From a virus, in IMG/VR virus record IMGVR_UViG_3300034284_002638, positions 1-64,000 of that record: a stretch of 64,000 nt of DNA; one strand, given 5' to 3'. Under the pieces are notes generated by a model that made no database searches, was not told the DNA's origin, and saw only the letters and a list, made by a program, of their open reading frames with translations. Each line of letters begins with the position of its first letter. The stretch's first letter is position 1. Position numbers and translations under genes: made by a program. Shown here piece after piece: positions 6,555 through 41,267 of the stretch.

Positions 6555-9389
6555 CTAAAAAAAGCCGTCCTCGTAATCTTCCCGGGGAATCATATCCACC
6601 TTGCAGTCGTCGGATCGGCACCTGTAAATAAATTCATTGCCCTCCTTGTCTCTAGTGGCCAGATAGACATCGTTCTTCCAAAGTCGCCTCAAGGACTCCA
6701 GAACGGGACCCACATAAGAGTCGTGCAGGCCACGGCCGTGCCAATTGTGCTGGAGAAACATGATGCCCTTGTTTCTGTGGTTGGGATCCATGAGCCTGAT
6801 TTCGGGCAATCCGCCATTCATGTATCTGGCCACCAGTTTGGCCTTGATCTTGGTGGGATCCTTGCTCTCAATCTTATATTCCCCGTTCGGATACTTCTTC
6901 CACTCAAAAAATTCATACTTTTCGCAAAACTCGGGCGTGAAGAATTCCATGATGAGGGTTAAATCGTTGTATAGTTTCCTAACCTCAAAGACCTTGTCGT
7001 GACCCAGTCCGAGTTTTAGATCCCAATCTTGTTTCTTTTTTATATCGGGGCACTCTTCCCACTCGGTACCGAACTTGCCCTTGTCCCATCGCTCCTCTAT
7101 GTCGCACAGAAGATTAAATCCAAGCTTATAGGGGTTCATTGAATATTTGCCTCCAAGCACCCCCATCTTGTGCTTTGCGTACTCTATGATGCCCGAACTT
7201 TCGTGCTCTTGGCCGAGTCCGGCAAGTCCTTGTTTTGAAATAATATGATAGTCAACCCAGCTGTTGTGATTTATAAATCCATGGGCCGCATAGCGATGGG
7301 TGTCGTCAACAGTCATGTCATAGACTGTTCCTTGGCCGAATTTTATGGAAACAATTTCATCAGACCAATTTTCCCTCGTGAACCACAACCTGTCGTTGAT
7401 GTATTTGCCAAGGGAATCTTGCTTTCTTTTTAGGCCGAAACTTATCTGCTCCATGAATTTCTTGGCTTGAACGCCGCAAATACGAATTTGCCAAATGTGT
7501 GTTTTCTTTTCATCAGAGGCCTTGGCTTTCTTTCTTGAGGAAATTATCCCATAGTTGAGGAGAATGGTCTGGATCTGTTCTCCCATCTTTTCGCTGGAGG
7601 TGGACAAAATCACTCCGGCCTTGCCAGCATAGCCGTCACAATCAAAATAGGATCTAAGAAAGGCAGACACTACATTCTTGGGAGACCTCAATATACAATT
7701 GGGGACTGTCTTTTCTCTGGCGCAGACGCCCGTCTTTAATCCTATACTCTTCAAAAATTCTTGTAAGCTCTTGGAAGAACAAGAGACTCTCCACCTGCCA
7801 TTCTTTGAGCTCCCGTCCCACTTCCTCTTGCCAACCAGACCAAAAAGAGATCCCAAAAGATTTTCATACTCTTCAATCTGCTCTAGATCACCTGAAGTCA
7901 AACCAAAAGATCTACCGGATTCAGAAATATGACCATCGCCTATCATATAGCCCAGAAAACTAGCCAAACCTTCAGTGACCTCGGTCGGAATTGAGATTTT
8001 TTTGCGTCTTATGGTTTGAGTTTCTCCCAACCTTGAAACTTGCTCGTCAAAAATCTTACTCAACTCCACGACTTTAAGCCCGGCTTGTGCGTCAGTCTGC
8101 ATTCCCATTCGGTAATAGTTGCATTTCCAGTACTTGGAGCCAAGAATTTCTCGTATCTTTCTTGTGTCCAGCCTCTCTTCTTCCTTGTAATCCAGACCGA
8201 CCGGATCTTTAGGCCATACATTGGAACCACTTATCCTTACCTTGTCACCCTCATTTAGGTCTCTCATATGGATCCATTGACCCTCAGATTCCATAATTCT
8301 GTGGTTATCCGATCCTGTGATCTTATATCCCCTCCTTGTCTCTATCGTTACAGTTTTTCTTTCATTAAAAATGAACCAGTTGCTGACCTTTTTGTTGGAG
8401 TCGCCGTCCGAAACCAAGCATGAGATCTTCCCTTCAACAAGCTCTTTCGCTGTTATGATTCCATTGTCAGTACAAATCAAAGTATCGGGCCCGACACAAG
8501 CGTGTCCCTCATTTATAGTCTTTGTCATTCTCTGTGGGGCAAAGTACATGCTTTCCTCGTAGAGCATAGACACGATGTCGCTCTCCCAAGGCTTGAGAGG
8601 GGCGTTGTCCCTAATGAAGCCCATTATGTCCTTGGTGGAACCCACGAAGAGATCCAGATATTCGGCAGCTTCAATTTTTTCTATCTCCAACTGCTGTTTC
8701 TTGATCCACTCCTCCGTGTTCACATACTCGTCCATGTAGTCGTGGCCGTCCTCGACCTTGAGTCGCTTAGGATGGCGGTACTTTCGCTTGTCCCTCGGAA
8801 TGTTGTCCTTGTATTTCTTGGGCTGCCAAGCCTTGGAAGGATCTATCAAAGTCTCTATCCTGAGCACATGGTCTATAAACTCGGTGACCCTTTCCTTTCC
8901 CCAACGGCTCATGTACTTTTTGATCCTGGTGCCGTGGTTGGCCAACTCGTTCATCATGTTCTGGCTGGTCTGCGAGAAGTAGATGTTGTTTTTGAAAAAA
9001 TCAGCGTGGCCGAGTGCATGAGCGACTACAGTCACATTGTCAAGAAGGCTGTTCGAGTCTAGGCAATAAAGGTATACGGGGGTGCAATTCGTGACCATTT
9101 CGTATATCCTGTGCATGCCATGAAGATATCCGCGCTGGAGCTCCTCATACTCCATGCCCCATTTCCAATGAGGATACCTCACGGGAAAGCCGCCATAGGC
9201 TGCTATTTCGCTTATCTCGTCGTAGGTGAGCATTTCAACAACGGTCGGAGGGAAGTCACAGCCGAACTCGCTCACCTTTCTGAATATCTCGGGAAGGAGT
9301 CTCTTAAGTTCCTCGGGCATCGGCACGCCTGGAATCTTACTATTCCCCATCAATACTGGGGATCCCATCATGAATTTTCTGTTGTTCAT
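6555..9389 (-). CDS. spoVR: SpoVR family protein, intein-containing precursor
   Basis: A 944-aa precursor. Removing residues 298-709 (intein, listed separately) leaves a 532-aa SpoVR protein, close to the ~510 aa of E. coli YcgB. SpoVR features include PVRYPHWKWGMEY, the 'NCTPVYLYCL' strand, HALGHADFFKNN and MTKTINEGHA-SWVDYHI, where the intein sits in the most conserved active-site-like segment. SpoVR proteins work with PrkA kinase and a DUF444 protein; the three genes are adjacent here in that order of transcription (prkA first). The biochemical activity of SpoVR is unsettled; in enterobacteria the module is linked to stress and starvation responses. Its presence in a phage suggests manipulation of starved hosts. 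Confidence 0.92.
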   Translation of the reverse strand: MNNRKFMMGSPVLMGNSKIPGVPMPEELKRLLPEIFRKVSEFGCDFPPTVVEMLTYDEISEIAAYGGFPVRYPHWKWGMEYEELQRGYLHGMHRIYEMVTNCTPVYLYCLDSNSLLDNVTVVAHALGHADFFKNNIYFSQTSQNMMNELANHGTRIKKYMSRWGKERVTEFIDHVLRIETLIDPSKAWQPKKYKDNIPRDKRKYRHPKRLKVEDGHDYMDEYVNTEEWIKKQQLEIEKIEAAEYLDLFVGSTKDIMGFIRDNAPLKPWESDIVSMLYEESMYFAPQRMTKTINEGHACVGPDTLICTDNGIITAKELVEGKISCLVSDGDSNKKVSNWFIFNERKTVTIETRRGYKITGSDNHRIMESEGQWIHMRDLNEGDKVRISGSNVWPKDPVGLDYKEEERLDTRKIREILGSKYWKCNYYRMGMQTDAQAGLKVVELSKIFDEQVSRLGETQTIRRKKISIPTEVTEGLASFLGYMIGDGHISESGRSFGLTSGDLEQIEEYENLLGSLFGLVGKRKWDGSSKNGRWRVSCSSKSLQEFLKSIGLKTGVCAREKTVPNCILRSPKNVVSAFLRSYFDCDGYAGKAGVILSTSSEKMGEQIQTILLNYGIISSRKKAKASDEKKTHIWQIRICGVQAKKFMEQISFGLKRKQDSLGKYINDRLWFTRENWSDEIVSIKFGQGTVYDMTVDDTHRYAAHGFINHNSWVDYHIISKQGLAGLGQEHESSGIIEYAKHKMGVLGGKYSMNPYKLGFNLLCDIEERWDKGKFGTEWEECPDIKKKQDWDLKLGLGHDKVFEVRKLYNDLTLIMEFFTPEFCEKYEFFEWKKYPNGEYKIESKDPTKIKAKLVARYMNGGLPEIRLMDPNHRNKGIMFLQHNWHGRGLHDSYVGPVLESLRRLWKNDVYLATRDKEGNEFIYRCRSDDCKVDMIPREDYEDGFF
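7263..8498 (-). other. Intein with LAGLIDADG homing endonuclease (in SpoVR)
   Basis: A 412-residue in-frame insertion. Its first residue is Cys298 in GHA/CVGPDTLICTDNG (splicing block A), block B contains GSDNHRI near residue 360, and it ends with HGFINHN before Ser710, matching block G (HN followed by Ser at +1). Two LAGLIDADG-type helices are visible: FLGYMIGDGHI (~478) and FLRSYFDCDGYA (~577). So both self-splicing and homing endonuclease parts look intact. The nearby VYDMTVDDTHRY is the usual block F. Splicing would restore NEGHA-SWVDYH in SpoVR. Confidence 0.93.
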
Positions 9390-9393
9390 TATG

Positions 9394-10596
9394 TCATCCC
9401 AGGTTGTTGGCCCAGTAGTTCTCCGTTCTTCCTCTTCTTCTTCCCTTTCCGAGAAGGTCTATAATCGCGTCCTTAATGCCCCTGTCCCTTTCTTGGTCGG
9501 ACAAGTTGGAGTCCGTGCCCACCTGCGTTGTCTTAAGGTTCGTCGACTTGCATTTTTCATCTACCGCCTGCTTGAGGCTGTTCTCGTACCTCCATGGAAG
9601 TATCTGGGTGATGCCCACCATGTTTACGAACTTAGGACCGAATTCCTCCTCCAGCGTCTTTACAAACACATCGTTGTCATTGTCCCAATTCTCGCCGTCC
9701 GTGAAATAAAACAAATATATGTTCCACTTGATGGGATTGAACCTGTTCTCAAACATCTTGGATATGAGTTTCAATGCGGTGGAGCAGGTCGTGCCTCCGC
9801 CGTACCGGTACTTGTAGAACTTCTTCTCATCAACCTCTTTCGCGACCGTGTCGTGCCAAACATAGACACGCTCTACCTTGTCATAAAACTTACGAATCCA
9901 AGTGTCTATCCACCAACTCATGTCGCTTACAATGTCGCACTTGTACTGATCCATGGACGCGGATCCGTCCCTGGCGAAGAATATTACGGCATTGCTAGAA
10001 GGCAATTTTATCTCATTAAACTGGCGGTATCGCTTGTCGCTGTTTATGGGGGTTATGAGCCTAATCGGGTTGGCAAAGCCCGGAATCTGGTAGAGTTTAT
10101 TTATGGATCCGTCGGCACACTGCCGCTTCAGAGCTTGCTTAAGGGTTCTGGCGTTGTGCCTGAGCGATTCGGGCCCCACGAGGGCTATGTTGTTATATTT
10201 CTTGATTATCTGCTCATAGGTGTCACTCGGCTTGGGTTTCATATCAGGAAGTTCAAGTTCATCCTGCATGAACTTTAGAACCTCGTCCATGTCCACGGCA
10301 ATATCCATGCCGTCGCCCGCGTCTTGTCCGGCCTTATTGCCCTTTCCGTCGCCCTTCTGATCGTCCTTGCCTATTACATCGCCCTTTTCGCCCTTTCCAC
10401 GGCCGATACCGCCGTCGCTATCGCCGTAGACGATGTGCGGTATGTCAATCTTTGGAATTGTAACGACTATCTTTCCATTCTTTCCTCTATTTCGAAAGAT
10501 GGATCCATTCTTGATGTACTTTTTAAGTTCTTTCCTTCTTATGCCTCCGTAGACATCTTGGAAGTCCTTATGATCGGAATCTATGCGGCGTGGAAT
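9394..10596 (-). CDS. DUF444 (YeaH-like) protein, likely ATT start
   Basis: A 400-aa protein with a von Willebrand A-like core (FFARDGSASMDQY, then FYFTDGENWDND). The first in-frame ATG gives only 304 aa and begins inside the conserved region: upstream of it, the same frame encodes typical YeaH N-terminal sequence (RRIDSDHKDFQDVYGG, then IPKIDIPHIVYG and a Gly-rich GRGKGEKGD segment). The only plausible start before the in-frame stop is ATT at the listed end, three bases after AGAGGTGA, just behind the prkA stop. DUF444 proteins partner with PrkA and SpoVR. The weak start may keep its dose below PrkA. Confidence 0.85.
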   Translation of the reverse strand: MPRRIDSDHKDFQDVYGGIRRKELKKYIKNGSIFRNRGKNGKIVVTIPKIDIPHIVYGDSDGGIGRGKGEKGDVIGKDDQKGDGKGNKAGQDAGDGMDIAVDMDEVLKFMQDELELPDMKPKPSDTYEQIIKKYNNIALVGPESLRHNARTLKQALKRQCADGSINKLYQIPGFANPIRLITPINSDKRYRQFNEIKLPSSNAVIFFARDGSASMDQYKCDIVSDMSWWIDTWIRKFYDKVERVYVWHDTVAKEVDEKKFYKYRYGGGTTCSTALKLISKMFENRFNPIKWNIYLFYFTDGENWDNDNDVFVKTLEEEFGPKFVNMVGITQILPWRYENSLKQAVDEKCKSTNLKTTQVGTDSNLSDQERDRGIKDAIIDLLGKGRRRGRTENYWANNLG

Positions 10597-10610
10597 AACT
10601 CACCTCTTTT

Positions 10611-12689
10611 TCAGTCGTCTTCCGAAACGTCTCCGCGAGCGAATATGGAACTTATGTATTCCAAGACATCGGTCGCGCTCTGCTCGTTGTAGCCGTACTG
10701 GTCTATGAGCCTCTTCTTTACGGCGTCTATCTTCTCTTGGATATCCTTGTCCACGACGGTGGCTCCCTTGATATTTAGAGCCGACAACTTTATGTGATCC
10801 TTAGTGTCCTCAAAAAGCTTGGCCTCCAAGGCTTTCTTAAGCTGGGGGTTTGAGTCCCATTTGAACTTCTTGCCGCCATGGGCTAGGTGGCCAATAAAGC
10901 CAGCCAGCATCCTTCTGAAATCGTCGGCACCAACTTCAGGTATATCTATCTTCTCTTCTATGGATCGCATCAATCTTTCGTCCGGCTCCTGATCTTGCTC
11001 CGTGAAGGGATTTTTTATCTTCGTGCCGTTGATGTAGGCCATGACATTGTCTATGTAGTTTCCGCAAAGCCTTTCTATGGCATGCTCGTCGCCAACAAGG
11101 GCCTTCTGGACTTCGGCCTTAAGTATCTCGTCCAGTTCCTTCCTGGCTAGGTCTATGCAAGCCACGAATTTGGACTTGTCCTCCTCGTTGTCAAAAAGGG
11201 ACTGATGGTCTACCCCGGCCTTAAGTTCATTGAGAACCATAAAAAAGTTTATATAATCGTAGTGCGAACTCAAGCAGTTGCTAATCTTGTCCTGGGTGTA
11301 ACGACAACTTATTCCCGTCATGCCCTCGTCAGGATATTTGTCCCGCAACTCCTTCACGCTATCCTCCGTCCAGCCGGGAAGGGATCTGCCGTCGTACAAC
11401 TTGGCCTTTTCCACGAGGCTTATCTTCCCGTCCTTGTCTTCTTGAAGTCTAGTAAGAACGGACCACAGAGCGGCTATCTCTAAGGTGTGGGGCGCTATGT
11501 GCTGCTTGATCTTATCCTTGTTGTACTGGTGTTCCAGAATCTTGAGCTCCTCGCTCCACCTGAGCAAATAGGGAACATCTATCTTCACAGTCCTATCCCT
11601 TAAAGCCTCCATGGTCTGGTCGCTCTTTAGCCTCAAGAACTCAGGAGAGTTTGTATGGCCTATGAGAACTGTGTCGACAGCCACTTGCGGGAACTTCTTT
11701 GGCTTGATCTGCTTTTCCTGAGAAGCCCCGAGGAGGTCGTAGAGGAACTCCTTGGCAAGCTTTAAAACCTCTATGAATTCGACAATTCCCCTGCTGCCAA
11801 CACAGAATTCTCCGTCAAAATTGAACGCCCTAGGATCCGAATCTGTGCCAAAGTGCGGCAACTTGCCCCAGTTTATATCACCAGTAAGTTCGGTGCTATC
11901 TTGGTTCTTCTCATCCTTGGGTTGGAAGGTGGCTATGCCACAGCGGTCGGCCTCACTGTGAGTCTTGCGCACGACCCGGATGTGATTTTCCACGACCTTG
12001 CCCCAATCCCCATCATTCCTAAGAAGCAGTTCTTGCATGAACTTCTTAGACCTTGGATCCAACTCCCCGTCAACATTTAACCTGTATAGTGTCTTGCGAT
12101 CCTTCTCAGGGGTGTTTTCTACAAGTATCCTGTTGAGATCAGCAACGACATCCTTTCTCATGTCTGGAGGGAGAAGTTTGAGGGGATCTTCGTGCATGGG
12201 CGACTCGTCCTCGGACTGCGTGTATATGCCGTTTTCCTTATCGGTTGGCAGGTTGACCCACTTGAATGTGTACCACGAGCCCTCGTCGGTGAGCGAGTAC
12301 TTTTCCAAACCCTTTTTTATGCAACGAAGGATTGTGGACTTGGAACTGCCTACGGGGCCGTGCAACAGCAAGACCCTTCGCTCCGGGCCGTAACCGCCGG
12401 CGGCTCCCTTGAAAAACTGAACGAGTTGGTGAAGCGTTTCCGAAAGTCCGAATATTGGCGAATCGGAACTGTCAAAAAAATTGTAGTGTATGTAGGTCTT
12501 CCTGTATCTCTCCACTTTTGAGGTGCCCTTGCTCATGATCATATCATAAAGATACTGATATGCTGTCCTGGCAAGCTTTGGATTAGAATATACCAGATCA
12601 AGATATTCGGAGAACGACATCTCCTCGTTAAGTTTCTTGAACTTTTCTTTATCAAACTTTGAAGAAAGCTTCTTGAGAATTTCGCTCAT
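10611..12689 (-). CDS. prkA: PrkA family serine protein kinase / AAA+ protein
   Basis: A 692-aa protein, close to the ~640 aa of E. coli YeaG. Residues 70-400 form the PrkA AAA domain with Walker A GPVGSSKST (111-119); the C-terminal half is the PrkA kinase-like region (YDGRSLPGWTEDSVKELR; AFIGHLAHGGKKFKWDSNP-like helices near the end). The start MSEILKK is chosen over an upstream ATG that would add 25 unrelated residues running through the terminator of the next gene. PrkA phosphorylates or remodels target proteins during starvation or sporulation. It is the first gene of the PrkA-DUF444-SpoVR operon. Confidence 0.92.
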   Translation of the reverse strand: MSEILKKLSSKFDKEKFKKLNEEMSFSEYLDLVYSNPKLARTAYQYLYDMIMSKGTSKVERYRKTYIHYNFFDSSDSPIFGLSETLHQLVQFFKGAAGGYGPERRVLLLHGPVGSSKSTILRCIKKGLEKYSLTDEGSWYTFKWVNLPTDKENGIYTQSEDESPMHEDPLKLLPPDMRKDVVADLNRILVENTPEKDRKTLYRLNVDGELDPRSKKFMQELLLRNDGDWGKVVENHIRVVRKTHSEADRCGIATFQPKDEKNQDSTELTGDINWGKLPHFGTDSDPRAFNFDGEFCVGSRGIVEFIEVLKLAKEFLYDLLGASQEKQIKPKKFPQVAVDTVLIGHTNSPEFLRLKSDQTMEALRDRTVKIDVPYLLRWSEELKILEHQYNKDKIKQHIAPHTLEIAALWSVLTRLQEDKDGKISLVEKAKLYDGRSLPGWTEDSVKELRDKYPDEGMTGISCRYTQDKISNCLSSHYDYINFFMVLNELKAGVDHQSLFDNEEDKSKFVACIDLARKELDEILKAEVQKALVGDEHAIERLCGNYIDNVMAYINGTKIKNPFTEQDQEPDERLMRSIEEKIDIPEVGADDFRRMLAGFIGHLAHGGKKFKWDSNPQLKKALEAKLFEDTKDHIKLSALNIKGATVVDKDIQEKIDAVKKRLIDQYGYNEQSATDVLEYISSIFARGDVSEDD

Positions 12690-12733
12690 CGTAATGCCTT
12701 TCGTGTTTAAATATTCTAGTGTAATCAAACTAA

Positions 12734-12761
12734 AAAAGCACGGCACAAAGGCCGTGCTTTT
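12734..12761 (-). terminator. Rho-independent terminator
   Basis: AAAAGCACGGC and GCCGTGCTTTT form an 11-bp stem with a 6-nt loop, flanked by A and T tracts so that it can work in both directions. It follows the stop of the zinc-ribbon gene (minus strand) and precedes prkA, separating the two transcription units. Confidence 0.85.
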
Positions 12762-12793
12762 CATTTGAACCTAAAATGGTTAGCACAAACAAC

Positions 12794-21242: not shown

Positions 21243-21459
21243 CAAGAAAGATTGGAAACAGAAACAACTAGAAGCCATCCGATCCGGCTATACTCGCTCC
21301 AAAGAATTGGCAGAAGAAATATGGCTTGAGGGGAACCACGAGGGAACCCCCAATGATTTCTATTATTTCCAGTGTGGTTTTGTGGCCGGGTTGAATTATC
21401 AACGGCTGAAGGCTTTGGAAAAGCTGAGCGAACTTGATCAAGAATTGGGGTTTCAATAA
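21235..21459 (+). CDS. Small hypothetical protein
   Basis: 74 aa, highly charged and helical (KKDWKQKQLEAIRSGYTRSK; LKALEKLSELDQEL). The middle CGFVAGLNYQRLKAL resembles phage proteins of the 'xxFxAGxxxxR' kind often annotated as hypothetical. Overlaps its neighbours. Unknown function. Confidence 0.6.
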   Translation: MSDKKDWKQKQLEAIRSGYTRSKELAEEIWLEGNHEGTPNDFYYFQCGFVAGLNYQRLKALEKLSELDQELGFQ

Positions 21460-21971
21460 TGAATAAGATACTTTACTTCTTGAGTACCGGGGTAATAATG
21501 CTCTCTATCTTTGACAGTTTCAAGACGAAAAAGGCTCCGGAAGACATCGTCTACCATTCCCTATCCGCCGAGGGCACCGTGGAATCCATCCACATCGGGG
21601 GCCGCACCGAGGTGGCGAAGGTCGTCGGAGCCAAGCTGACAAGGCACGGCAGATACTCAAAGACCACTAGATGGGGAAGAAGGACAGACCTCTGGACACT
21701 GGATGCGGAAATAATCCAGCCCGAGGGCGAGAAGAACTACTTCGCCCCGCACCTTGACGGCATGGTGGATGTAAAACAGAAATCTGGGCAGTTGACAGAA
21801 CACGGAGAGCGCCCTTGGGATGCACTGACCAATATGTGCGTTGGTTGGGATCAGTTAAGATTCGCCAATATCGTATTCAAGGACGACAAACCCGTGAGCG
21901 TCTACTTCTCCCATTTGAAATTTTCTGAGGGTGAGTGGATAATGGTTGCCTCTTATGTGGCAAACTTTTGA
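21459..21971 (+). CDS. Membrane-anchored or secreted protein, unknown
   Basis: 170 aa with an N-terminal hydrophobic segment (ILYFLSTGVIMLSIF) that could be a signal anchor. The remainder is a beta-rich globular domain (EGTVESIHIGGRTEVAKVV; WGRRTDLWTLDAEI; VDVKQKSGQL). Start overlaps the previous stop by one base (AATGA). No family recognised. Confidence 0.6.
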   Translation: MNKILYFLSTGVIMLSIFDSFKTKKAPEDIVYHSLSAEGTVESIHIGGRTEVAKVVGAKLTRHGRYSKTTRWGRRTDLWTLDAEIIQPEGEKNYFAPHLDGMVDVKQKSGQLTEHGERPWDALTNMCVGWDQLRFANIVFKDDKPVSVYFSHLKFSEGEWIMVASYVANF

Positions 21972-21980
21972 AAGTACTAG

Positions 21981-22424
21981 ATGAGTTCTCACATCAAAAT
22001 CCAGAAACCCGACTCGTGGGCCAACAATCCCGTGCTTGTCGCCGGAGAGTTGGCGTTGGACACTAACGCGAACATGCTGAAGGTGGGCGACGGCGTGACG
22101 GCTTGGACCGAACTTCCCTATATTTCTTCAGACCGTTGGCGCTCGCCCGGAGCCGAGGAGGCAGACAGGCCGAGGGAAAAATTAAAAGACATGATCTTCT
22201 TGAAATATGTCAACATGCTGCGGGAAGAACTCGGCAGGATTGTGATGCCTTCGGATCTGACCGGTCCTGAGCCGAATGGTTGGCGAACTTGGATGGAGAG
22301 ACATGGCCTGAAATACTTGAAGCCGACGAAGGATCATGTGGATGTTCCCTTCATGGGGGGCGAGTCCATATACATGCCAAGAGACTTCGCGGACAAGGCT
22401 CTGGTGCTGGGGTTTCTGCCATGA
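21981..22424 (+). CDS. KALVLG-family protein fused to tail-fibre-type repeat (member 3)
   Basis: 147 aa made of two parts. Residues 1-50 contain NPVLVAGELALDTNANMLKV and GDGVTAWTELPY, the repeat that opens many phage tail-fibre and receptor-binding proteins. Residues 60-147 are a complete KALVLG domain: helix LKDMIFLKYVNMLREELG, central WRTWMERHGL, and C-terminal YMPRDFADKALVLGFLP. The fusion links the family to a virion-type module and suggests domain shuffling. Its terminal CCATGA provides the ATG of the next gene. Confidence 0.8.
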   Translation: MSSHIKIQKPDSWANNPVLVAGELALDTNANMLKVGDGVTAWTELPYISSDRWRSPGAEEADRPREKLKDMIFLKYVNMLREELGRIVMPSDLTGPEPNGWRTWMERHGLKYLKPTKDHVDVPFMGGESIYMPRDFADKALVLGFLP

Positions 22425-22564
22425 TCGCCGTTGAAATTTTCGTACTAGCCATCGCGATATCAATCGTCTTCTGGCTGTTCGCCATGCCGGTCATGATTCT
22501 TTGTTTATGGTTCATTCAGAGATTCTTTCCTTCCCCCGACACCACTGATCCGGGGCCGAAATGA
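22421..22564 (+). CDS. Single-helix membrane protein
   Basis: 47 aa, almost entirely one or two hydrophobic segments (IFVLAIAISIVFWLFAM; VMILCLWFIQRFF) with a Pro/Asp-rich tail. Its ATG overlaps the previous stop and its stop overlaps the next ATG. Small membrane proteins of this kind may be holin-like or superinfection factors, but nothing specific supports that. Confidence 0.55.
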   Translation: MIAVEIFVLAIAISIVFWLFAMPVMILCLWFIQRFFPSPDTTDPGPK

Positions 22565-22863
22565 CAAAGGTAGAAAAAGCAGACAGGCTCTACCAGATAT
22601 TCAAGCGTAGATTTGATGAGATCAAAGACGACATCGTTCGTGGCTCGGCGAAAAACCGAATCTTCTTGATCAACGAAAAGATAGAAGAATACATGGAAAA
22701 ACTGCATCCTCACGCAAGGATGATGCACCAAGAAACCCTTGTTTACTTGATCAACGAGCAAGTCGTGGACGCGATTGCCGTGATAAGCCCGGTCCACGAA
22801 AAAAAGGTCATCGTATTAGAAGTGGAATACGCAAATAAGATTTTGGTGTTGGGGCTGCCATGA
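22561..22863 (+). CDS. KALVLG-family protein (member 4)
   Basis: 100 aa. N-terminal MTKVEKADRLYQIFKRRFDE, central IEEYMEKLHP, C-terminal VEYANKILVLGLP. It is the closest sibling of the gene that follows (MTKREKADKLHLMFRNRFDE), so the two arose by a recent tandem duplication. ATGA overlap at both ends. Confidence 0.75.
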   Translation: MTKVEKADRLYQIFKRRFDEIKDDIVRGSAKNRIFLINEKIEEYMEKLHPHARMMHQETLVYLINEQVVDAIAVISPVHEKKVIVLEVEYANKILVLGLP

Positions 22864-23420
22864 CCAAAAGGGAAAAAGCAGACAAGTTGCATCTGATGTT
22901 CAGAAACAGATTCGACGAGATCAAGTGCTATGGGGGTTTCGGCTATTCGGCCGGCGTCAAAGGAATTGACGAGTATATGGAAAGATTGAAGCCTGATGTT
23001 ATAATGGTGCGTTGTGTCCATCTTGTATCCGTGATCAACAACGATTTCGTGGATTCAATCGCCGTGAGGAATCCTTATGACGGCGACAAGGCCATCGTTA
23101 TGGATGCGGGGTATGCCGACAAGATACTCGTGCTGGGACTACCACGAATAAAAAAAATAGAGTTGGGGCTGATCGGACTGGGTTTCGCCACCTTGCTTTT
23201 TCTGACGCCTTTTCTGAACGAAATCCACAAGAAAAATATTGAATCCCTCCGGGAACCGCCGGTCTTCAGAATCGAGGAACACCCGAGACTTCAGGCCCAC
23301 TGCAAGACATGCGAGCGTTGCAGGGAAATGGTATATAATCCCGAAAAGCCTACCCCGCCGATTTGCGACATCGGCATGGGCCTCATGGTAGAGGACGTCA
23401 AGGAAAGGTGGGGAAAATGA
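22860..23420 (+). CDS. KALVLG-family protein with membrane helix and Cys cluster (member 5)
   Basis: 186 aa. Residues 1-95 are a KALVLG domain (central IDEYMERLKP; signature AGYADKILVLGLP). The frame then continues into a membrane helix (LIGLGFATLLFLTPF, ~103-117) and a cysteine-rich tail (CKTCERCREM) resembling a metal site. So here the signature is internal rather than terminal. The extension may be a captured gene. Overlaps the next gene by ATGA. Confidence 0.72.
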   Translation: MTKREKADKLHLMFRNRFDEIKCYGGFGYSAGVKGIDEYMERLKPDVIMVRCVHLVSVINNDFVDSIAVRNPYDGDKAIVMDAGYADKILVLGLPRIKKIELGLIGLGFATLLFLTPFLNEIHKKNIESLREPPVFRIEEHPRLQAHCKTCERCREMVYNPEKPTPPICDIGMGLMVEDVKERWGK

Positions 23421-23833
23421 CCGAAGAATGCGCCGATCCCGAAGCCCCGAAAGAGAATTGCGTCTCCTGCGGGAAGATCGTCCACACGTGCGAGAGGAAG
23501 ACCCCCGTCAACGACAGTTATCTCTGCCCGGCACACGGAGAAGGATGGCAGTTGGACGATGGAGTCTGGGTCTGCGGCGCGGAATGCGAAGAAAAATACT
23601 TCAGGAGGGAGTCTTTCAAGCGGGACATCAAATTTTTCCATCCGTTCAACTTTCTGGTTTTCAGAAAGCCCAAGATGGACGACCCCGAATGGCACCCCAG
23701 CGATGATCTATGCCAGTACGGATTCAGTCTGGATTTGACCACCGAATTGTACTACTACACATACGATTGGGGTCGTGGCATCAATTTCAGAATTCTGGGC
23801 TTCGGATTTGAATGGACGAAGGTGAAAATGTGA
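23417..23833 (+). CDS. Cys-rich zinc-finger-like protein, paralogue A1
   Basis: 138 aa. The N-terminal half has Cys in CVSCGKIVHTC, LCPAHGEGW and CGAECEEKY, a likely treble-clef or double zinc site. The C-terminal half is FFHPFNFLVF, DDPEWHPSDDL and TYDWGRGINFRILGFGFE. A second copy, 16.9 kb downstream, shares most of both halves. Each copy is followed by a copy of the 84-aa B gene, which indicates block duplication. Function unknown. Confidence 0.7.
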   Translation: MTEECADPEAPKENCVSCGKIVHTCERKTPVNDSYLCPAHGEGWQLDDGVWVCGAECEEKYFRRESFKRDIKFFHPFNFLVFRKPKMDDPEWHPSDDLCQYGFSLDLTTELYYYTYDWGRGINFRILGFGFEWTKVKM

Positions 23834-24084
23834 AAAACTGGGAATTCACCCTAGAACTGACGGGCGCGGAAGACTTGACCACCGAACTGGCCGACGCTTT
23901 GTTCCTTGCGGGGTGCGCCGACGCAACCCTCAGCAAGTCCGGAGGCAAGTTGTGGCTGGACTTTGACAGGGACTCTGAATCCTTGGAAGAGGCCGTTCGG
24001 ACTGCCATTGATAATGTGCGCCGTGCCGGCGAGAGGCTGGGTTTTTCTTTGGACGCCAAGGAGGCGAGAGATGGAGATCGGTGA
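23830..24084 (+). CDS. Small paralogue B1
   Basis: 84 aa. A GTG start overlapping the previous stop (GTGA) is chosen because it gives the same length as its paralogue at 41.0 kb; an ATG six codons upstream is also possible. Shared pieces include FTLELTGAEDLTTELADAL, FLAGCADAT and a helical SLEEAVRTAIDNVRRAGERL. The ferredoxin-like strand-helix pattern suggests a small regulatory or binding domain. Function unknown. Confidence 0.65.
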   Translation: MKNWEFTLELTGAEDLTTELADALFLAGCADATLSKSGGKLWLDFDRDSESLEEAVRTAIDNVRRAGERLGFSLDAKEARDGDR

Positions 24085-24478
24085 TAAGATAGAGGGAGTT
24101 TCCGGCCGCTTCGGGGATTTCGTGGGCTCGTTCAACAAGAGCGACATGGAGCCCGACCCGAACTTGGAGTACATCTACGATCACGGCACTGTCTTCTGCG
24201 AGGAGGCTCCGTACAATCTTCCCACAGAATACGCTTGCCGTGGGCGCAAGATCGCAGTCAATGTCAGGAAGCAGAAAGGATATTCTTGTAAATACAGCTT
24301 CAACTTCATAGACGACGAGACCAAAAAGGAATACCATACCCACTACGGATGGAGCCTCATCCCCAACACCTCCGAGAACTTGCTGAGGCTTGAGGAGATC
24401 AGAGGGCTCAATGATCAGATTAATCAGCTCGGAATTCGCATAGGGGCGGTCAGGAAGGAAATGGGTCACCTGGGGTGA
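24071..24478 (+). CDS. Paralogue C1, unknown
   Basis: 135 aa, beginning MEIGDKIEGVSGRFGDFVGS and containing FCEEAPYNLPTEYACRGRKI and a C-terminal helix (LRLEEIRGLNDQINQLG). A close copy lies 8.5 kb downstream. The start overlaps the B1 gene by 14 nt. The beta-rich middle and conserved Cys/Trp suggest a globular domain. No function known. Confidence 0.65.
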   Translation: MEIGDKIEGVSGRFGDFVGSFNKSDMEPDPNLEYIYDHGTVFCEEAPYNLPTEYACRGRKIAVNVRKQKGYSCKYSFNFIDDETKKEYHTHYGWSLIPNTSENLLRLEEIRGLNDQINQLGIRIGAVRKEMGHLG

Positions 24479-25296: not shown

Positions 25297-25320
25297 AGAC
25301 CCGTATGGATAAACGGGTCT
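25297..25320 (+). repeat. Left-end hairpin overlapping tnpB start
   Basis: AGACCCGT (25297-25304) pairs with ACGGGTCT (25313-25320). The 8-nt loop begins with the ATG of tnpB. It may be the LE recognition hairpin for a Y1 transposase, or an mRNA structure that hides the start codon and limits TnpB translation. Confidence 0.6.
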
Positions 25321-26585
25321 CCAAAAGAAAAGAAACGAAGAAGCGTCGGTCAAAAATGGACTGCCGAGTCTTCGAGTTGAAACTGGACCGCTCCAAGATG
25401 TCAAAGAAGACCCGTACGCACCTTTCGCAACTGTTCACGGAGGCGAAGTGGTTCTACAACTACTGCCTGTCCATGGATGACATCAACGAGTCCGACACCA
25501 CAGCCAAGACCGTCCCCGTCAAGGTAGAGGACAGGTACGAGGATCGGCCACTGATTGTTTTCGGCGGAGAGATGAAGCAGGCGATGAAGGCAAGAATATT
25601 CGGGTCTTTGTCCTCGCTCAAGGCCCTGAAGGAAAAGGGACACAAGGTCGGAAGACTAAAGTTCAAGAGCAGGATCAACTCCATACCTCTGAAACAGTAT
25701 GGTGCGACCCACCAGTTGGATAAGAAAAAGTCAATGGTCAAGATCAGGAGCGTGAGGAAGTGGCTCAAGGCATCCGGACTCAACCAAATTCCCGACGATG
25801 TTGAGATCGCCAACGCCAACCTCGTGCGGAAGGCCGACGACTTCTACCTCAAGGTCACCACCTTCGGCGAGAAGAAGGAGAGGGTCGTGCCGGAGGCGAG
25901 CATCGGCATAGACTTCGGGTGCGAGACCCAGTTGACGTTCAGCGACGGTACGAAGGTCGAGTTCCAGGTCCCCGTGAGCAAGCGGCTCCGCCGATTGGAC
26001 AGGAAGATCATGAGGGACAGACGTCCCGACTCCAAGAAGAAGAACCAAGACAGGATCAAGAGACAGCGGGAGTACGAACGTATTTCCAACAGGAAGAAGG
26101 ACATAAGGAACAAGATCGTTCATGCGATAACCAGCAGTTTCAGGTATGTGTGCTTTCAGGACGAGAGCGTCCACGCTTGGCAAGCAAGTGGTCACGGGAG
26201 GAAGATACAGAATTCTGGCATCGGCGGGATAATCTCCGACTTGAAGAACAAGTCGGTAACGCCGTGTGAGGTTCCCAAGTTCTTCCCCTCGACCAAGCTC
26301 TGTCCGAGTTGCGGCAGTTTGAATAGGCTTTCTTTGGGGGAAAGGACATACCGGTGCGGTTGTGGTTTTGAGCGTGACCGTGACTGGAAGTCGGCCTCTT
26401 GTATAGAGACCGAAGGTTTGATACAAAAAAGAGTACCTGTGGAACGCAGGGATTTTAAGGTGCAGGAGAGTTCCGCCTCTGCCTTCGTCGGGCTGTTGAG
26501 TAAGATCAACGGAATCCGCGTGAAGGCAAGCGGGTTCAATGAATGCAGGAAGCCCACGGCTTCAGCGAGCCTGAGGGCTCGCTGA
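25305..26585 (+). CDS. tnpB: TnpB RNA-guided nuclease
   Basis: 426 aa, usual TnpB length. The RuvC core is intact: Asp203 in SIGIDFGCET, Glu287 in CFQDESVH, and Asp358/360 in FERDRDWKSA. The zinc finger has Cys333, 336, 351 and 353 (KLCPSCGS, YRCGCG). The N-terminal 150 residues are the basic wedge/REC-like part. TnpB uses an RNA from the element's right end to cut DNA next to a short TAM and so promotes retention of the element. Met18 is an alternative start. With no broken residues, it should be active. Confidence 0.9.
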   Translation: MDKRVSKRKETKKRRSKMDCRVFELKLDRSKMSKKTRTHLSQLFTEAKWFYNYCLSMDDINESDTTAKTVPVKVEDRYEDRPLIVFGGEMKQAMKARIFGSLSSLKALKEKGHKVGRLKFKSRINSIPLKQYGATHQLDKKKSMVKIRSVRKWLKASGLNQIPDDVEIANANLVRKADDFYLKVTTFGEKKERVVPEASIGIDFGCETQLTFSDGTKVEFQVPVSKRLRRLDRKIMRDRRPDSKKKNQDRIKRQREYERISNRKKDIRNKIVHAITSSFRYVCFQDESVHAWQASGHGRKIQNSGIGGIISDLKNKSVTPCEVPKFFPSTKLCPSCGSLNRLSLGERTYRCGCGFERDRDWKSASCIETEGLIQKRVPVERRDFKVQESSASAFVGLLSKINGIRVKASGFNECRKPTASASLRAR

Positions 26586-26849: not shown

Positions 26850-27105
26850 ATATTGGGTTGTTCGTGTGGCCTATTTGGTCGAGGGCGCCGCCGGAGTCGC
26901 CGGACTGGCCGCTATGGTGCTTGTTCCTTGGATTCTTCTGATCGGGTTTGTTTCGTGCTGGCTTTGGCGCCGATCAAAGTATTCAAAACTCCGTTCCGCC
27001 GTCAGGCGCCTCTTGGACGATGTCAACTCCCGCTACCCGGACAAGAACCCAAGGGAGTGGAGTTGTCCCTATATGCAGGCCTTGGACGACATGACCCATA
27101 CATGA
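26836..27105 (+). CDS. Membrane-anchored paralogue E1
   Basis: 89 aa: an N-terminal half with two hydrophobic segments (YWVVRVAYLVEGAAGVAGLA; VPWILLIGFVSCWLW) and a C-terminal ~45 residues (LRSAVRRLLDDVNSRYPDKN, then PREWSCPYMQALDDM) almost identical to the soluble E2 protein. The two E genes share only this 3' module, so an end exchange by recombination is likely. Confidence 0.65.
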   Translation: MTTLEYWVVRVAYLVEGAAGVAGLAAMVLVPWILLIGFVSCWLWRRSKYSKLRSAVRRLLDDVNSRYPDKNPREWSCPYMQALDDMTHT

Positions 27106-30643: not shown

Positions 30644-30927
30644 ATTCTGAAATGGGCTCCACCAAGCTGCACCAACTTCTAGAGGAGAAGTGGGAAAAGG
30701 TGTTTGGACAGTACCGCTCCCTCCAAAAATGGGCGGAATATATCAACGAGATGGGCTTCAAGACAACAAGAATCGTATATGCTCCCGACGGACATGCCGC
30801 ATATGCGATGAAATTTCCCGACCACGAGGATGTCTTCTTCGTCCTTGATCCATTGAGCAAATTGCATCTCATTTCAATTCCCAAGGAAGTCGCCTTCAAG
30901 GTTCTGGCCTTGGGAGGGTTCCCGTGA
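30640..30927 (+). CDS. KALVLG-family protein (member 18)
   Basis: 95 aa: TKLHQLLEEKWEKVFGQY, WAEYINEMGF, FFVLDPLSKLHLI, SIPKEVAFKVLALGGFP at the stop; the terminal CCGTGA gives a GTG start to the next gene. Confidence 0.74.
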   Translation: MNSEMGSTKLHQLLEEKWEKVFGQYRSLQKWAEYINEMGFKTTRIVYAPDGHAAYAMKFPDHEDVFFVLDPLSKLHLISIPKEVAFKVLALGGFP

Positions 30928-31838
30928 ATGAAAAACTCTATGACATCCTGAACAAGAAACTTTTTGACATCGCGGACTTGCACTACGAAAAAGCCAATTC
31001 TCCGCACCGCCAAGAACCCCGCCACGAGCGCCTTGGCAAAAAGATTGTTTCTAGTTCCCCGGTTTCTACCTCGTTTGGCCCGAAGATCATGTTCCCCAAG
31101 CATGTTTGGCGCTCATATCTCGACGAGATGGGAATCGTCAAAGCCGAGGGGGTTGAACAGCGAGTCCTTCCTGTCGGAAAATTTTTGATCGTGGCGGATC
31201 CTCTTGTTGCATACGAAAAGTTGGGCGTCCCCGAAGAACTCGCCATGAAGGCCTTAGCCCTTGGATACTTCCCCGACAGCCCCTCAATCGAGAATATGCG
31301 GGAGACAGCCTTAGAAGAACCAGTTTACACGATCAAAAGTCGGGGCTATAATGCTCTAGGAAAAACTCAAATGATCTACCTCGTGCTTGCAGTCGCGCTA
31401 CTTCTCGCCATCCCGATAGGGCTGGAATGCTTGTTCGCCTATCTCATGGACGACGCCGAGAAAAACCGCCACCTTCGGGAAACAAGTGATAAAATCATGA
31501 AAGAAAATCGCCATGACGCTCTCCTTGAGGCCGCGACGCGACTTTATGAGTGCGATTTTTGGAAGCCAACTAGAATGTCGGAGGATGAGGCATCTAAGGC
31601 GTGGGAGGCGTTGCGTGACGCAATTGGGCTTTCGCCGGGAACAGCCACTCAGTGCGACGGGCGCATCGGCTCCTCGACTAATGGAGCCTCATCTCTCACC
31701 GACGCGGAGCGGGCTGCGATCCTTTTCTTCGTAGACAAGCATCGCAAAATCCAGAAGGATGGCGAAAATTACTGCTGTATTGAGGCGAGTCTGCACGCCG
31801 ATGCGCTTCAGGGCTTGCTTGAAAGGGAGTCCCGTTGA
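30924..31838 (+). CDS. KALVLG-family protein with membrane helix and captured C-terminal domain (member 19)
   Basis: 304 aa in three parts. Residues 1-130 are a KALVLG domain of the DSPSIE subgroup (NEKLYDILNKKLFDIADLHY; WRSYLDEMGI; VPEELAMKALALGYFP; DSPSIENMRE). Residues ~150-172 are a membrane helix (MIYLVLAVALLLAIPIGL). The last ~110 residues (ALLEAATRLYECDFWKPTRM, EASKAWEALRDAIGLSPG, VDKHRKIQKDGENY) look like enterobacterial phage sequence. A fusion of host-range-foreign DNA onto the family member is likely. Confidence 0.72.
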   Translation: MNEKLYDILNKKLFDIADLHYEKANSPHRQEPRHERLGKKIVSSSPVSTSFGPKIMFPKHVWRSYLDEMGIVKAEGVEQRVLPVGKFLIVADPLVAYEKLGVPEELAMKALALGYFPDSPSIENMRETALEEPVYTIKSRGYNALGKTQMIYLVLAVALLLAIPIGLECLFAYLMDDAEKNRHLRETSDKIMKENRHDALLEAATRLYECDFWKPTRMSEDEASKAWEALRDAIGLSPGTATQCDGRIGSSTNGASSLTDAERAAILFFVDKHRKIQKDGENYCCIEASLHADALQGLLERESR

Positions 31839-32053: not shown

Positions 32054-32330
32054 AAAACAAGTCCCCCTGCACGAGCTTCTGGCGTCCGTCCCGGAAGACC
32101 ACCGATTGGTCATCCACGGGGAGGGAAGATACCCGTCCAGCACCAGCATCCCTGTGGGAAGGCTGTGCCAAGAGGCATCCAAGGAGTTAGAGAAACAATT
32201 TGAACTCCGTTTCGCCGTCAAGAGACTCCTGGATGACGTCAACTCCCGCTACCCGGACAAGAACCCAAGGGAGTGGAGTTGCCCCTACATGCAGGCTTTG
32301 GACGACATGACACGCGAGAAAACGATATGA
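32046..32330 (+). CDS. Small paralogue E2 (soluble form)
   Basis: 94 aa. The N-terminal half is soluble (EKQVPLHELLASVPEDHRLV) and unrelated to E1, whereas residues ~48-90 (RFAVKRLLDDVNSRYPDKN, REWSCPYMQALDDMT) match E1 almost exactly. It reads as a shared C-terminal module on two different front ends. Confidence 0.65.
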   Translation: MIEKQVPLHELLASVPEDHRLVIHGEGRYPSSTSIPVGRLCQEASKELEKQFELRFAVKRLLDDVNSRYPDKNPREWSCPYMQALDDMTREKTI

Positions 32331-32346
32331 AAAGGACTTAAATTGT

Positions 32347-32559
32347 ATGGAATCAAAAATTGAAAAACTTGTGGATTACCTTCGGGCGGATGGGCATGAC
32401 GACGATGCGGAAGCCTTGATTGTCGTGGATCATCTTATGAGGGAATATGCCTTCTCACATGAGCCTATGGAAGAAAATGCAAAGATCTTTTCCCAACTAC
32501 TGCAAGATTTAGTAGCGGATTGGATGGGAGGTGAAAGATGCAGATCGGTGACAAGATAA
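32347..32559 (+). CDS. Small acidic helical protein
   Basis: 70 aa, start MESKIEKLVDYLRADGHDDD, all helix, with HLMREYAFSHEPMEEN and a short WMGGERCRSVTR end. Overlaps C2 by 22 nt. Small helical proteins like this may be DNA mimics, but the charge pattern is not extreme. Unknown function. Confidence 0.55.
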   Translation: MESKIEKLVDYLRADGHDDDAEALIVVDHLMREYAFSHEPMEENAKIFSQLLQDLVADWMGGERCRSVTR

Positions 32560-32945
32560 AGGGCGTTTCCAACCGATTCGAGGACTTCGTGGGATCGTTC
32601 AACAAGAGCGAAATGGAGCCCGACCCGAATTCGGAGTACATCTACGACCACCACATCGTCTTCTGCGAGGAGGCTCCGTACAATATTCCTACGGAATACG
32701 CTTGTGGTGGACGCAAGATCGCAGTCAATGTCAGGAAGCAAGATGAGCGATGGTCTTCCCGGTACACCTTCAATTTCATAGACGACGAGGCCAAGAGGGA
32801 GTATCACACCTACTACGGGTGGAGCCTCATCCCCCACACCTCCGAGAACCTGATGAGGCTTGAGGAGATCAAGTGGCTCAACGAGCAGATCAATCAGTTC
32901 GGAATTCGCATAGGGGCGGTCAGGAAAGAAATGGGGCATCTTTAA
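32538..32945 (+). CDS. Paralogue C2, unknown
   Basis: 135 aa, a close copy of C1: MQIGDKIKGVSNRFEDFVGS, FCEEAPYNIPTEYACGGRKI, TYYGWSLIPHTSENLMRL. Only a short acidic gene precedes it rather than B, so synteny with the first copy is broken here. Confidence 0.65.
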   Translation: MQIGDKIKGVSNRFEDFVGSFNKSEMEPDPNSEYIYDHHIVFCEEAPYNIPTEYACGGRKIAVNVRKQDERWSSRYTFNFIDDEAKREYHTYYGWSLIPHTSENLMRLEEIKWLNEQINQFGIRIGAVRKEMGHL

Positions 32946-39913: not shown

Positions 39914-40324
39914 ATGAAACCGAGAAAGCAAAAAAAAATGAACGACGAACAGAAAACTTGGTTGAAAGTTCTCCTTTATTTAGTTGCAATCATATCATTG
40001 GTTTCTTTCTTGTGTTATTTGGACAATGAGTGGAGAGAGAAGATGGGCTCCGCCATCTTTTGCCCCAAGGGCGTCAAGCCGAACAATGTGGTGGAACGCT
40101 TCCACGAACACCAAGAAGTCAAGGTCTTGGAAAAGGGTACCGACGAGGTCGTAAGGACCTACGGAAGGGTGCGGCTCACTTTCCTCTCCAAGGATTCGTT
40201 CATGATACAGGACGACAACACAGGGAACCCCATCCTGCTTCTCGTGCAACTCAAACCCAACGAATATGTCACGGCGTTCACGAAAACTGAAAATTTTGAA
40301 GCCAAGGCTTGGGGTTTAAAATGA
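39914..40324 (+). CDS. Membrane-anchored protein, unknown
   Basis: 136 aa: a basic N-terminus (KPRKQKK), one membrane helix (VLLYLVAIISLVSFLCYL), and an exposed beta-rich domain (VKVLEKGTDEVVRTYGRVRL; DSFMIQDDNTGNPILLL). An internal ATG 24 bases in would remove the basic start. Overlaps the next gene by ATGA. Confidence 0.6.
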   Translation: MKPRKQKKMNDEQKTWLKVLLYLVAIISLVSFLCYLDNEWREKMGSAIFCPKGVKPNNVVERFHEHQEVKVLEKGTDEVVRTYGRVRLTFLSKDSFMIQDDNTGNPILLLVQLKPNEYVTAFTKTENFEAKAWGLK

Positions 40325-40734
40325 ATGAGTCTTGTGCCGATCCCGACGCCCCGCTCGAGAGCTGCTTCGTGTGTGGAAAATCCATCCACACCTGCGAAAG
40401 GAAAGAGGCCGTAAACAACAGCTATCTCTGTCCCGTTCATGGCGACGGGTGGCAGAGGGGCGATGGGGCTTGGATCTGTAGCGAGGAGTGCGACCAGAAG
40501 TATGAAGCCGACAAGCCCCGCCACTCCAGCTTAAAGTTCTTCCACCCCTTCAACTTCGTCTTCGTCAAGAGGCCGAAGACGGACGATCCCAACTGGCACC
40601 CCAGTGACGACCTTCACCAATATGGATTCAGCCTTGACCTGACTACCGAACTTTATTTCTACACCTACGACTGGGGCCGGGGTTTTAACTTCAGGGTATT
40701 GGGATTCGGATTCGAGGTGTGCTTCAACCCATGA
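40321..40734 (+). CDS. Cys-rich zinc-finger-like protein, paralogue A2
   Basis: 137 aa, second copy of A1: CFVCGKSIHTC, YLCPVHGDGW, CSEECDQKY, FFHPFNFVFV, DDPNWHPSDDLHQYGFSLDL, TYDWGRGFNFRVLGFGFE. The gene B copy follows after two short genes. Cysteine positions are fully preserved, indicating selection for a metal site. Confidence 0.7.
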   Translation: MNESCADPDAPLESCFVCGKSIHTCERKEAVNNSYLCPVHGDGWQRGDGAWICSEECDQKYEADKPRHSSLKFFHPFNFVFVKRPKTDDPNWHPSDDLHQYGFSLDLTTELYFYTYDWGRGFNFRVLGFGFEVCFNP

Positions 40735-40940: not shown

Positions 40941-41020
40941 AAATAAAAAAGCTCACGGCGGACCTCAGCCGAAGTGCAACCCGTACACAGCATTCGATGA
41001 AAAGGTGGATGTATGACTAA
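40937..41020 (+). CDS. Very short basic ORF
   Basis: 27 codons (MKIKKLTADLSRSATRTQHS and a seven-residue end), with ATGA overlap from the previous gene and an 8-nt overlap with the next. It bridges a 72-bp gap, so translation through it would keep ribosomes coupled to paralogue B2. Confidence 0.4.
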   Translation: MKIKKLTADLSRSATRTQHSMKRWMYD

Positions 41021-41267
41021 AACTTGGGATTTCACCCTCGTGCTGAAGGGGGTGTCGGACTTGACCGACGATCTGGCCGACGCCCTTTTTGAGGCGGGAT
41101 GCGACGACGCGACCCATAGCATGGTGGGCGGCAAGCCTCTTCTTGATTTCTCCAGGGAGGCGGAATCGCTCGAGGAAGCCGTCTTGACCGCCTTGGAAGA
41201 CATCCGGCGGGCCGGCGAGATGCTGGGTGTCCCTTTGGATGTGGAACGCATTGGAGATGAACTGTGA
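41013..41267 (+). CDS. Small paralogue B2
   Basis: 84 aa, same length as B1: WDFTLVLKGVSDLTDDLADA, FEAGCDDAT, GGKPLLDFSREAESLEEAV, DIRRAGEMLGVPLDV. Conserved Cys in AGCxDAT. Unknown function. Confidence 0.66.
   Translation: MTKTWDFTLVLKGVSDLTDDLADALFEAGCDDATHSMVGGKPLLDFSREAESLEEAVLTALEDIRRAGEMLGVPLDVERIGDEL

Follow-up and report, generated by a model that had tools for sequence, protein, structure and literature searches.

An apparently lineage-specific gene joining a tail-fibre-type Mtd_N module to a KALVLG domain in a myovirus paralog array

The closest described relatives of the gene analysed here are phage receptor-binding proteins that begin with the Mtd_N module (Pfam PF18454), among them HylP-type hyaluronan lyases and Mtd of Bordetella phage. 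HylP and Mtd are both trimers. In tblastn searches, Mtd_N was found in hundreds of phage records, mainly of Synechococcus and other cyanophages and of Gordonia and Arthrobacter phages, and the genes among the matches listed are annotated as minor tail, fibre, hydrolase or hyaluronidase. Nothing directly relevant was found in the literature on Mtd_N and on phage paralog arrays. In this study, we analysed a short gene in which an Mtd_N module is followed by a domain of a different family, named KALVLG after its C-terminal motif.

The gene lies in a stretch of 64,000 nucleotides (hereafter the window; positions 1 to 64,000 of IMG/VR record IMGVR_UViG_3300034284_002638), which is part of a 101,673-base record of a myovirus. 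Genes for gp32, a RecA-type recombinase and a DnaB-type helicase are found in the window, and the sheath, tube and baseplate hub genes lie on the right, all on the minus strand. A near-identical record (G006) reaches further left, where a DNA polymerase is encoded and, about 43 kb upstream of the fusion gene, an intact Mtd_N protein of 216 aa. T4-type late promoters (NATAAATA) were considered as a test for early or late expression and set aside, as the sites were too few and showed no link to known structural genes. The minus strand also harbors a phage-borne trio of PrkA (AAA/kinase), DUF444 and SpoVR genes (6555-12764), and the SpoVR gene (944 aa) encodes an intein-splicing domain with LAGLIDADG motifs. 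Repetitive low-complexity ORFs, possibly a collagen-like fibre gene in other frames, are located at the right end of the record (L005:16205-17656, record bases 100205-101656). The features of the locus are as follows, all on the plus strand.

19400 to 42996, +, island with the KALVLG paralog array; 32 members by profile, many overlapping by ATGA
21459 to 21971, +, upstream 170-aa gene; 74% identical to its ortholog in the related phage record G003
21981 to 22130, +, Mtd_N (fibre N-terminal) module, residues 1-50; Pfam PF18454, PHROG tail families, Foldseek
22131 to 22166, +, linker, residues 51-62; GC-rich, low AF2 confidence
22167 to 22421, +, complete KALVLG domain, residues 63-147; profiles built without the fusion protein, AF2
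22191 to 22193, +, internal in-frame ATG (M71), a possible alternative start; distant GAGGG at 14 nt spacing
22421 to 22564, +, downstream 47-aa hydrophobic/membrane gene; ATGA overlap with the fusion gene, G003 ortholog 56%
22860 to 23420, +, second KALVLG fusion, KALVLG domain with a C-terminal predicted TM tail
30924 to 31838, +, third KALVLG fusion, KALVLG domain with a C-terminal predicted TM tail

On translation, the ORF 21981-22424 yields 147 aa. A preliminary description of the sequence had assigned residues 1-50 to a tail-fibre-type N-terminus, an assignment to be given up if this segment matched no fibre domain in profile searches. The two pattern sequences on which it rested, NPVLVAGELALDT and GDGVTAWTELPY, are found at residues 16-28 and 36-47. 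The segment does match: Pfam Mtd_N is hit at E 2.7e-7 with 30.8 bits, above the curated cut-off of 26.3, residues 13-40 falling on profile positions 11-37. In PHROGs, residues ~8-52 match 15 families at E <= 1, all but one of them (14/15) tail, structural or hyaluronidase families. Foldseek searches with the AF2 model matched the first ~50 residues to the N-terminal domain of the HylP-type hyaluronan lyase tail fibres (2yvv, 6x3m, 2dp5, 2c3f; prob 1.00, rmsd 2.3-2.8 A over 46-50 columns, E 0.002-0.016) and that of Mtd (1yu0-1yu4; prob 0.80-0.89, rmsd 1.9-2.0 A, 37 columns). In the alignment, M1 falls on the initiator methionine of several Mtd_N relatives, and the segment scores as coding, with island-like codon usage, in the fusion frame only. 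Compared with 68 Mtd_N relatives, the protein keeps 11/11 columns that are at least 90% conserved, but just 17/31 of those that are at least 70% conserved. The first strand and loop (consensus IQxRR-[G/D]TAAxW) are shortened and altered. This strand is common in relatives but not required by the Pfam cut-off; therefore its erosion, as judged from the alignment, weakens the membership in Mtd_N and does not cancel it.

The complete KALVLG domain that had been described behind this module is likewise borne out. A KALVLG profile built without the fusion protein (A2) matches it at E 3.6e-5, and an iterated profile made from 95 sequences of the window and of other phage records gave, in leave-one-out scoring, 33.7 bits, the match spanning positions 6-97 of the 100 in the model. 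In the AF2 model, pLDDT is 80-91 for residues ~11-50, 56 on average for residues 51-60 and 90-97 for residues 61-147. Helices are predicted in the KALVLG half at residues 63-84, 90-94, 101-107 and 134-143, and strands at 119-124 and 128-133. The monomer model of the whole protein has a mean pLDDT of 87.2 and a pTM of 0.61, so the placement of the two domains relative to each other is uncertain. Both domains were thus detected independently by sequence and by AF2, and Mtd_N additionally by fold (Foldseek). This confirms that the gene is a genuine fibre-type Mtd_N front end joined to a complete KALVLG domain.

KALVLG arrays are present in three phage records besides the window; the hits number 18 in G001, 8 in G002 and 24 in G003, with a single weak one in G004. 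G006 has a single further KALVLG gene outside the island, some 5 kb to the left of where the window begins (L052:11433-11735, minus strand). The family is without a match in Pfam or PHROGs and has no significant sequence relative in the PDB, where weak matches to HicB, SAMTOR and SemD (E 0.36-1.5) were dismissed as chance. Limited searches, namely one strict DNA pattern scan for the C-terminal motif in bacterial and archaeal genomes and a tblastn of 50,697 phage records with a single member as query, yielded no KALVLG sequence. Folding was done from alignment A4, since the mixed alignments A5 and A7 put KALVLG rows onto W42. The canonical domain was predicted with a pLDDT of 87.6, a pTM of 0.79 and the order a-a-b-a-b-b-a, and its model has no fold match at E <= 0.001 in the PDB or BFVD. 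KALVLG therefore appears to be an undescribed alpha/beta family, confidently predicted by AF2. Ortholog pairs between the window phage and G003 show dN/dS values of 0.12-0.31, which argues that the family is under purifying selection. For the fusion itself dN/dS is uninformative, the carrying records being 100% identical where compared.

Like many but not all members, the fusion gene ends in KALVLGxLP with an ATGA overlap to the next gene (22395-22424). In several KALVLG genes of the island the terminal L-G codons (e.g. CTGGGG) could serve as the Shine-Dalgarno sequence of the next, ATGA-overlapping start, and translation may account for some of the conservation of the motif. The island also contains a TnpB/Cas12f-like gene (25305-26585, plus strand; OrfB_IS605, Cas12f1-like TNB) and a 90-aa gene (23812-24084, plus strand) of PHROG 2620 (excisionase/transcriptional regulator, E 8.6e-13), to which a gene at 41013-41267 looks similar. 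Several small genes or segments are duplicated: 24071-24478 and 32538-32945 (86% nt identity), 26987-27095 and 32203-32311 (91% nt identity), and 23417-23833 and 40321-40734 (67% protein identity).

Where translation begins bears on whether the Mtd_N part is made at all. There is no Shine-Dalgarno sequence at ATG 21981 (-1.5 kcal/mol), and ATG 22191 has a better one (GAGGG), but it is badly spaced at 14 nt. Together with the eroded strand 1, this suits a reading in which Mtd_N is the leftover of an inserted fibre gene fragment and translation from ATG 22191 yields the functional KALVLG protein of 77 aa, or the gene is decaying. Several observations speak against such a relic. M71 lies within predicted helix 1 (residues 63-84), which a start there would cut, and residues 60-70 add ~3 bits to the leave-one-out profile score. 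The frame is open with the codon usage of the island, the core Mtd_N residues are intact, and without the Mtd_N segment a 219-nt gap would remain in a compact array. We consider a relic unlikely, and the start at ATG 21981 is favoured over that at 22191, although both may possibly be in use.

The distribution of the fusion is narrow. Two other IMG/VR records (G006 and G007) contain a 12.4-kb segment with the fusion at 100% identity, which argues against a one-off assembly error. These two records and the window record are the same phage population and provide no independent evolutionary evidence. The single population is what a chance resemblance or an assembly chimera has in its favour; such a reading is extremely improbable in view of the Pfam score above the curated cut-off, the independent fold match and the identity of three records. 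In the syntenic operon of G003, the gene between the orthologs of the 170-aa and 47-aa neighbours is not the fusion but a 42-aa TM gene, and neither KALVLG nor Mtd_N is found at that site. No ortholog of the KALVLG half was found in G001-G003 either. By this comparison of gene order and sequence, the fusion is lineage-specific and would have been gained in the window lineage or lost in G003; its absence there could be a loss. Among related Mtd_N loci, 0/80 contain a KALVLG domain, and the search for the same fusion in other phages that had been suggested earlier returned just the near-identical records. Neither a donor gene nor a junction was found for the Mtd_N part; the region of the 216-aa Mtd_N gene that the phage itself carries was tried as a donor and has no significant DNA match to it. 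Two large adjacent Mtd_N proteins are encoded in the KALVLG phage G003 (L055:4680-12053; one of 1688 aa that ends in a poly-proline tail and one of 766 aa).

The fusion had also been described as the sole pointer to where the family is located. This does not hold, as the members at 22860-23420 and 30924-31838 have predicted C-terminal TM segments. Relatives of the 22860 tail are separate genes of 104 aa in G001 and 123 aa in G003 (33-35% identity), and the TM part of the 30924 tail has its relative in a separate 72-aa G003 gene (L021:4254-4472) that starts exactly at the homologous methionine; in both cases the relatedness covers parts of the tails. As these TM tails have stand-alone relatives, fusion of KALVLG genes with small genes recurs, and the comparison shows at least three KALVLG genes of the island that appear to be fused with separate small genes. 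Apparent N-terminal extensions on other KALVLG ORFs (e.g. 20377, 37365, L021:44, L017:1) were rejected by eye as mostly frame-overlap reads of upstream genes, rich in R, H and P. Recurrent joining of small neighbouring genes would explain the Mtd_N-KALVLG chimera, with a more telling partner than in the TM cases.

Two inferences had been drawn in the preliminary description: that some family members are virion components, or that the island captures pieces of structural genes. Nearly all Mtd_N relatives are annotated as tail fibre, head fibre, hyaluronidase or structural proteins, and in nearly all of them the module is N-terminal, as it is here. It is therefore tempting to speculate that Mtd_N docks this KALVLG protein, and perhaps others, to the tail or baseplate, so that it travels with the particle, on its surface or inside, and could be delivered on infection. 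However, 31 of the 32 KALVLG members in the window are without any recognised virion domain, two have TM segments instead, the fusion gene lies in an island of small accessory genes and not with the tail genes, and KALVLG is absent from the Mtd_N loci compared above. Incorporation into the virion is thus quite unlikely. The bolder form of the idea, that KALVLG is a new effector family with a new fold of which one member is put on the virion via a captured fibre N-terminus, is very doubtful; if true, the captured N-terminus would be a natural 'fibre-tag' route for displaying a small accessory protein on the tail or delivering it together with the tail. Capture from structural genes fits best, ahead of virion components: one fibre-type module is indeed joined in frame, but the capture is limited to one KALVLG gene in one lineage.

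Overall, the best explanation, which we hold to be reasonably probable, is a lineage-specific, in-frame two-domain chimera in which Mtd_N provides a fibre-type handle and virion incorporation is not required. A fibre-type unit comprising the start codon and the whole ~50-residue domain would have been joined in frame to a KALVLG gene. Translation would most likely start at ATG 21981 and is probably coupled to the 170-aa gene, whose stop lies 9 nt before. If so translated, the Mtd_N part is, by analogy with HylP and Mtd, most likely an oligomerisation (probably trimer) or attachment handle. It would serve a KALVLG effector domain that without this handle would be soluble and intracellular. The array layout, the divergence and the purifying selection suggest that this domain is probably one of a set of host-interaction proteins, long maintained and diversified, whose targets during infection may be of host or phage origin. 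Counted against this chimera are the missing Shine-Dalgarno sequence at 21981, the eroded strand 1, the single carrying population, the uncertain domain placement in the monomer model, the lack of a donor and the possible loss in G003. The gene provides an example of a fibre docking or oligomerisation module attached to a phage accessory protein other than a fibre. KALVLG genes fuse repeatedly with separate small genes, here with one fibre-type N-terminus and two membrane tails. These fusions offer handles on where members of the undescribed family, with arrays of up to 32, act.

Compared with the described systems, the protein shares the N-terminal placement and the fold of its first module with Mtd_N PF18454, HylP and Bordetella phage Mtd, and the core W..NPxL..GE....(D)T...KxGDG.T.W..L.Y with Mtd_N receptor-binding proteins. 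Stand-alone short Mtd_N ORFs of phages (64-98 aa; e.g. G002 L053:10483-10779, 98 aa, in a KALVLG phage, and L077, 64 aa) have the same module and no fibre shaft, but also no joined KALVLG domain. With the KALVLG paralogs of the window, G001, G002, G003 and, weakly, G004, it has the complete domain in common, including W..YL..G and P.ELA.KALVLG.LP, and no other member found has a recognised N-terminal partner. Known Mtd_N members carry fibre, enzyme or lectin domains downstream, whereas here, in place of a shaft, an enzymatic or a receptor-binding domain, the 85-residue KALVLG domain follows directly after the N-terminal module.
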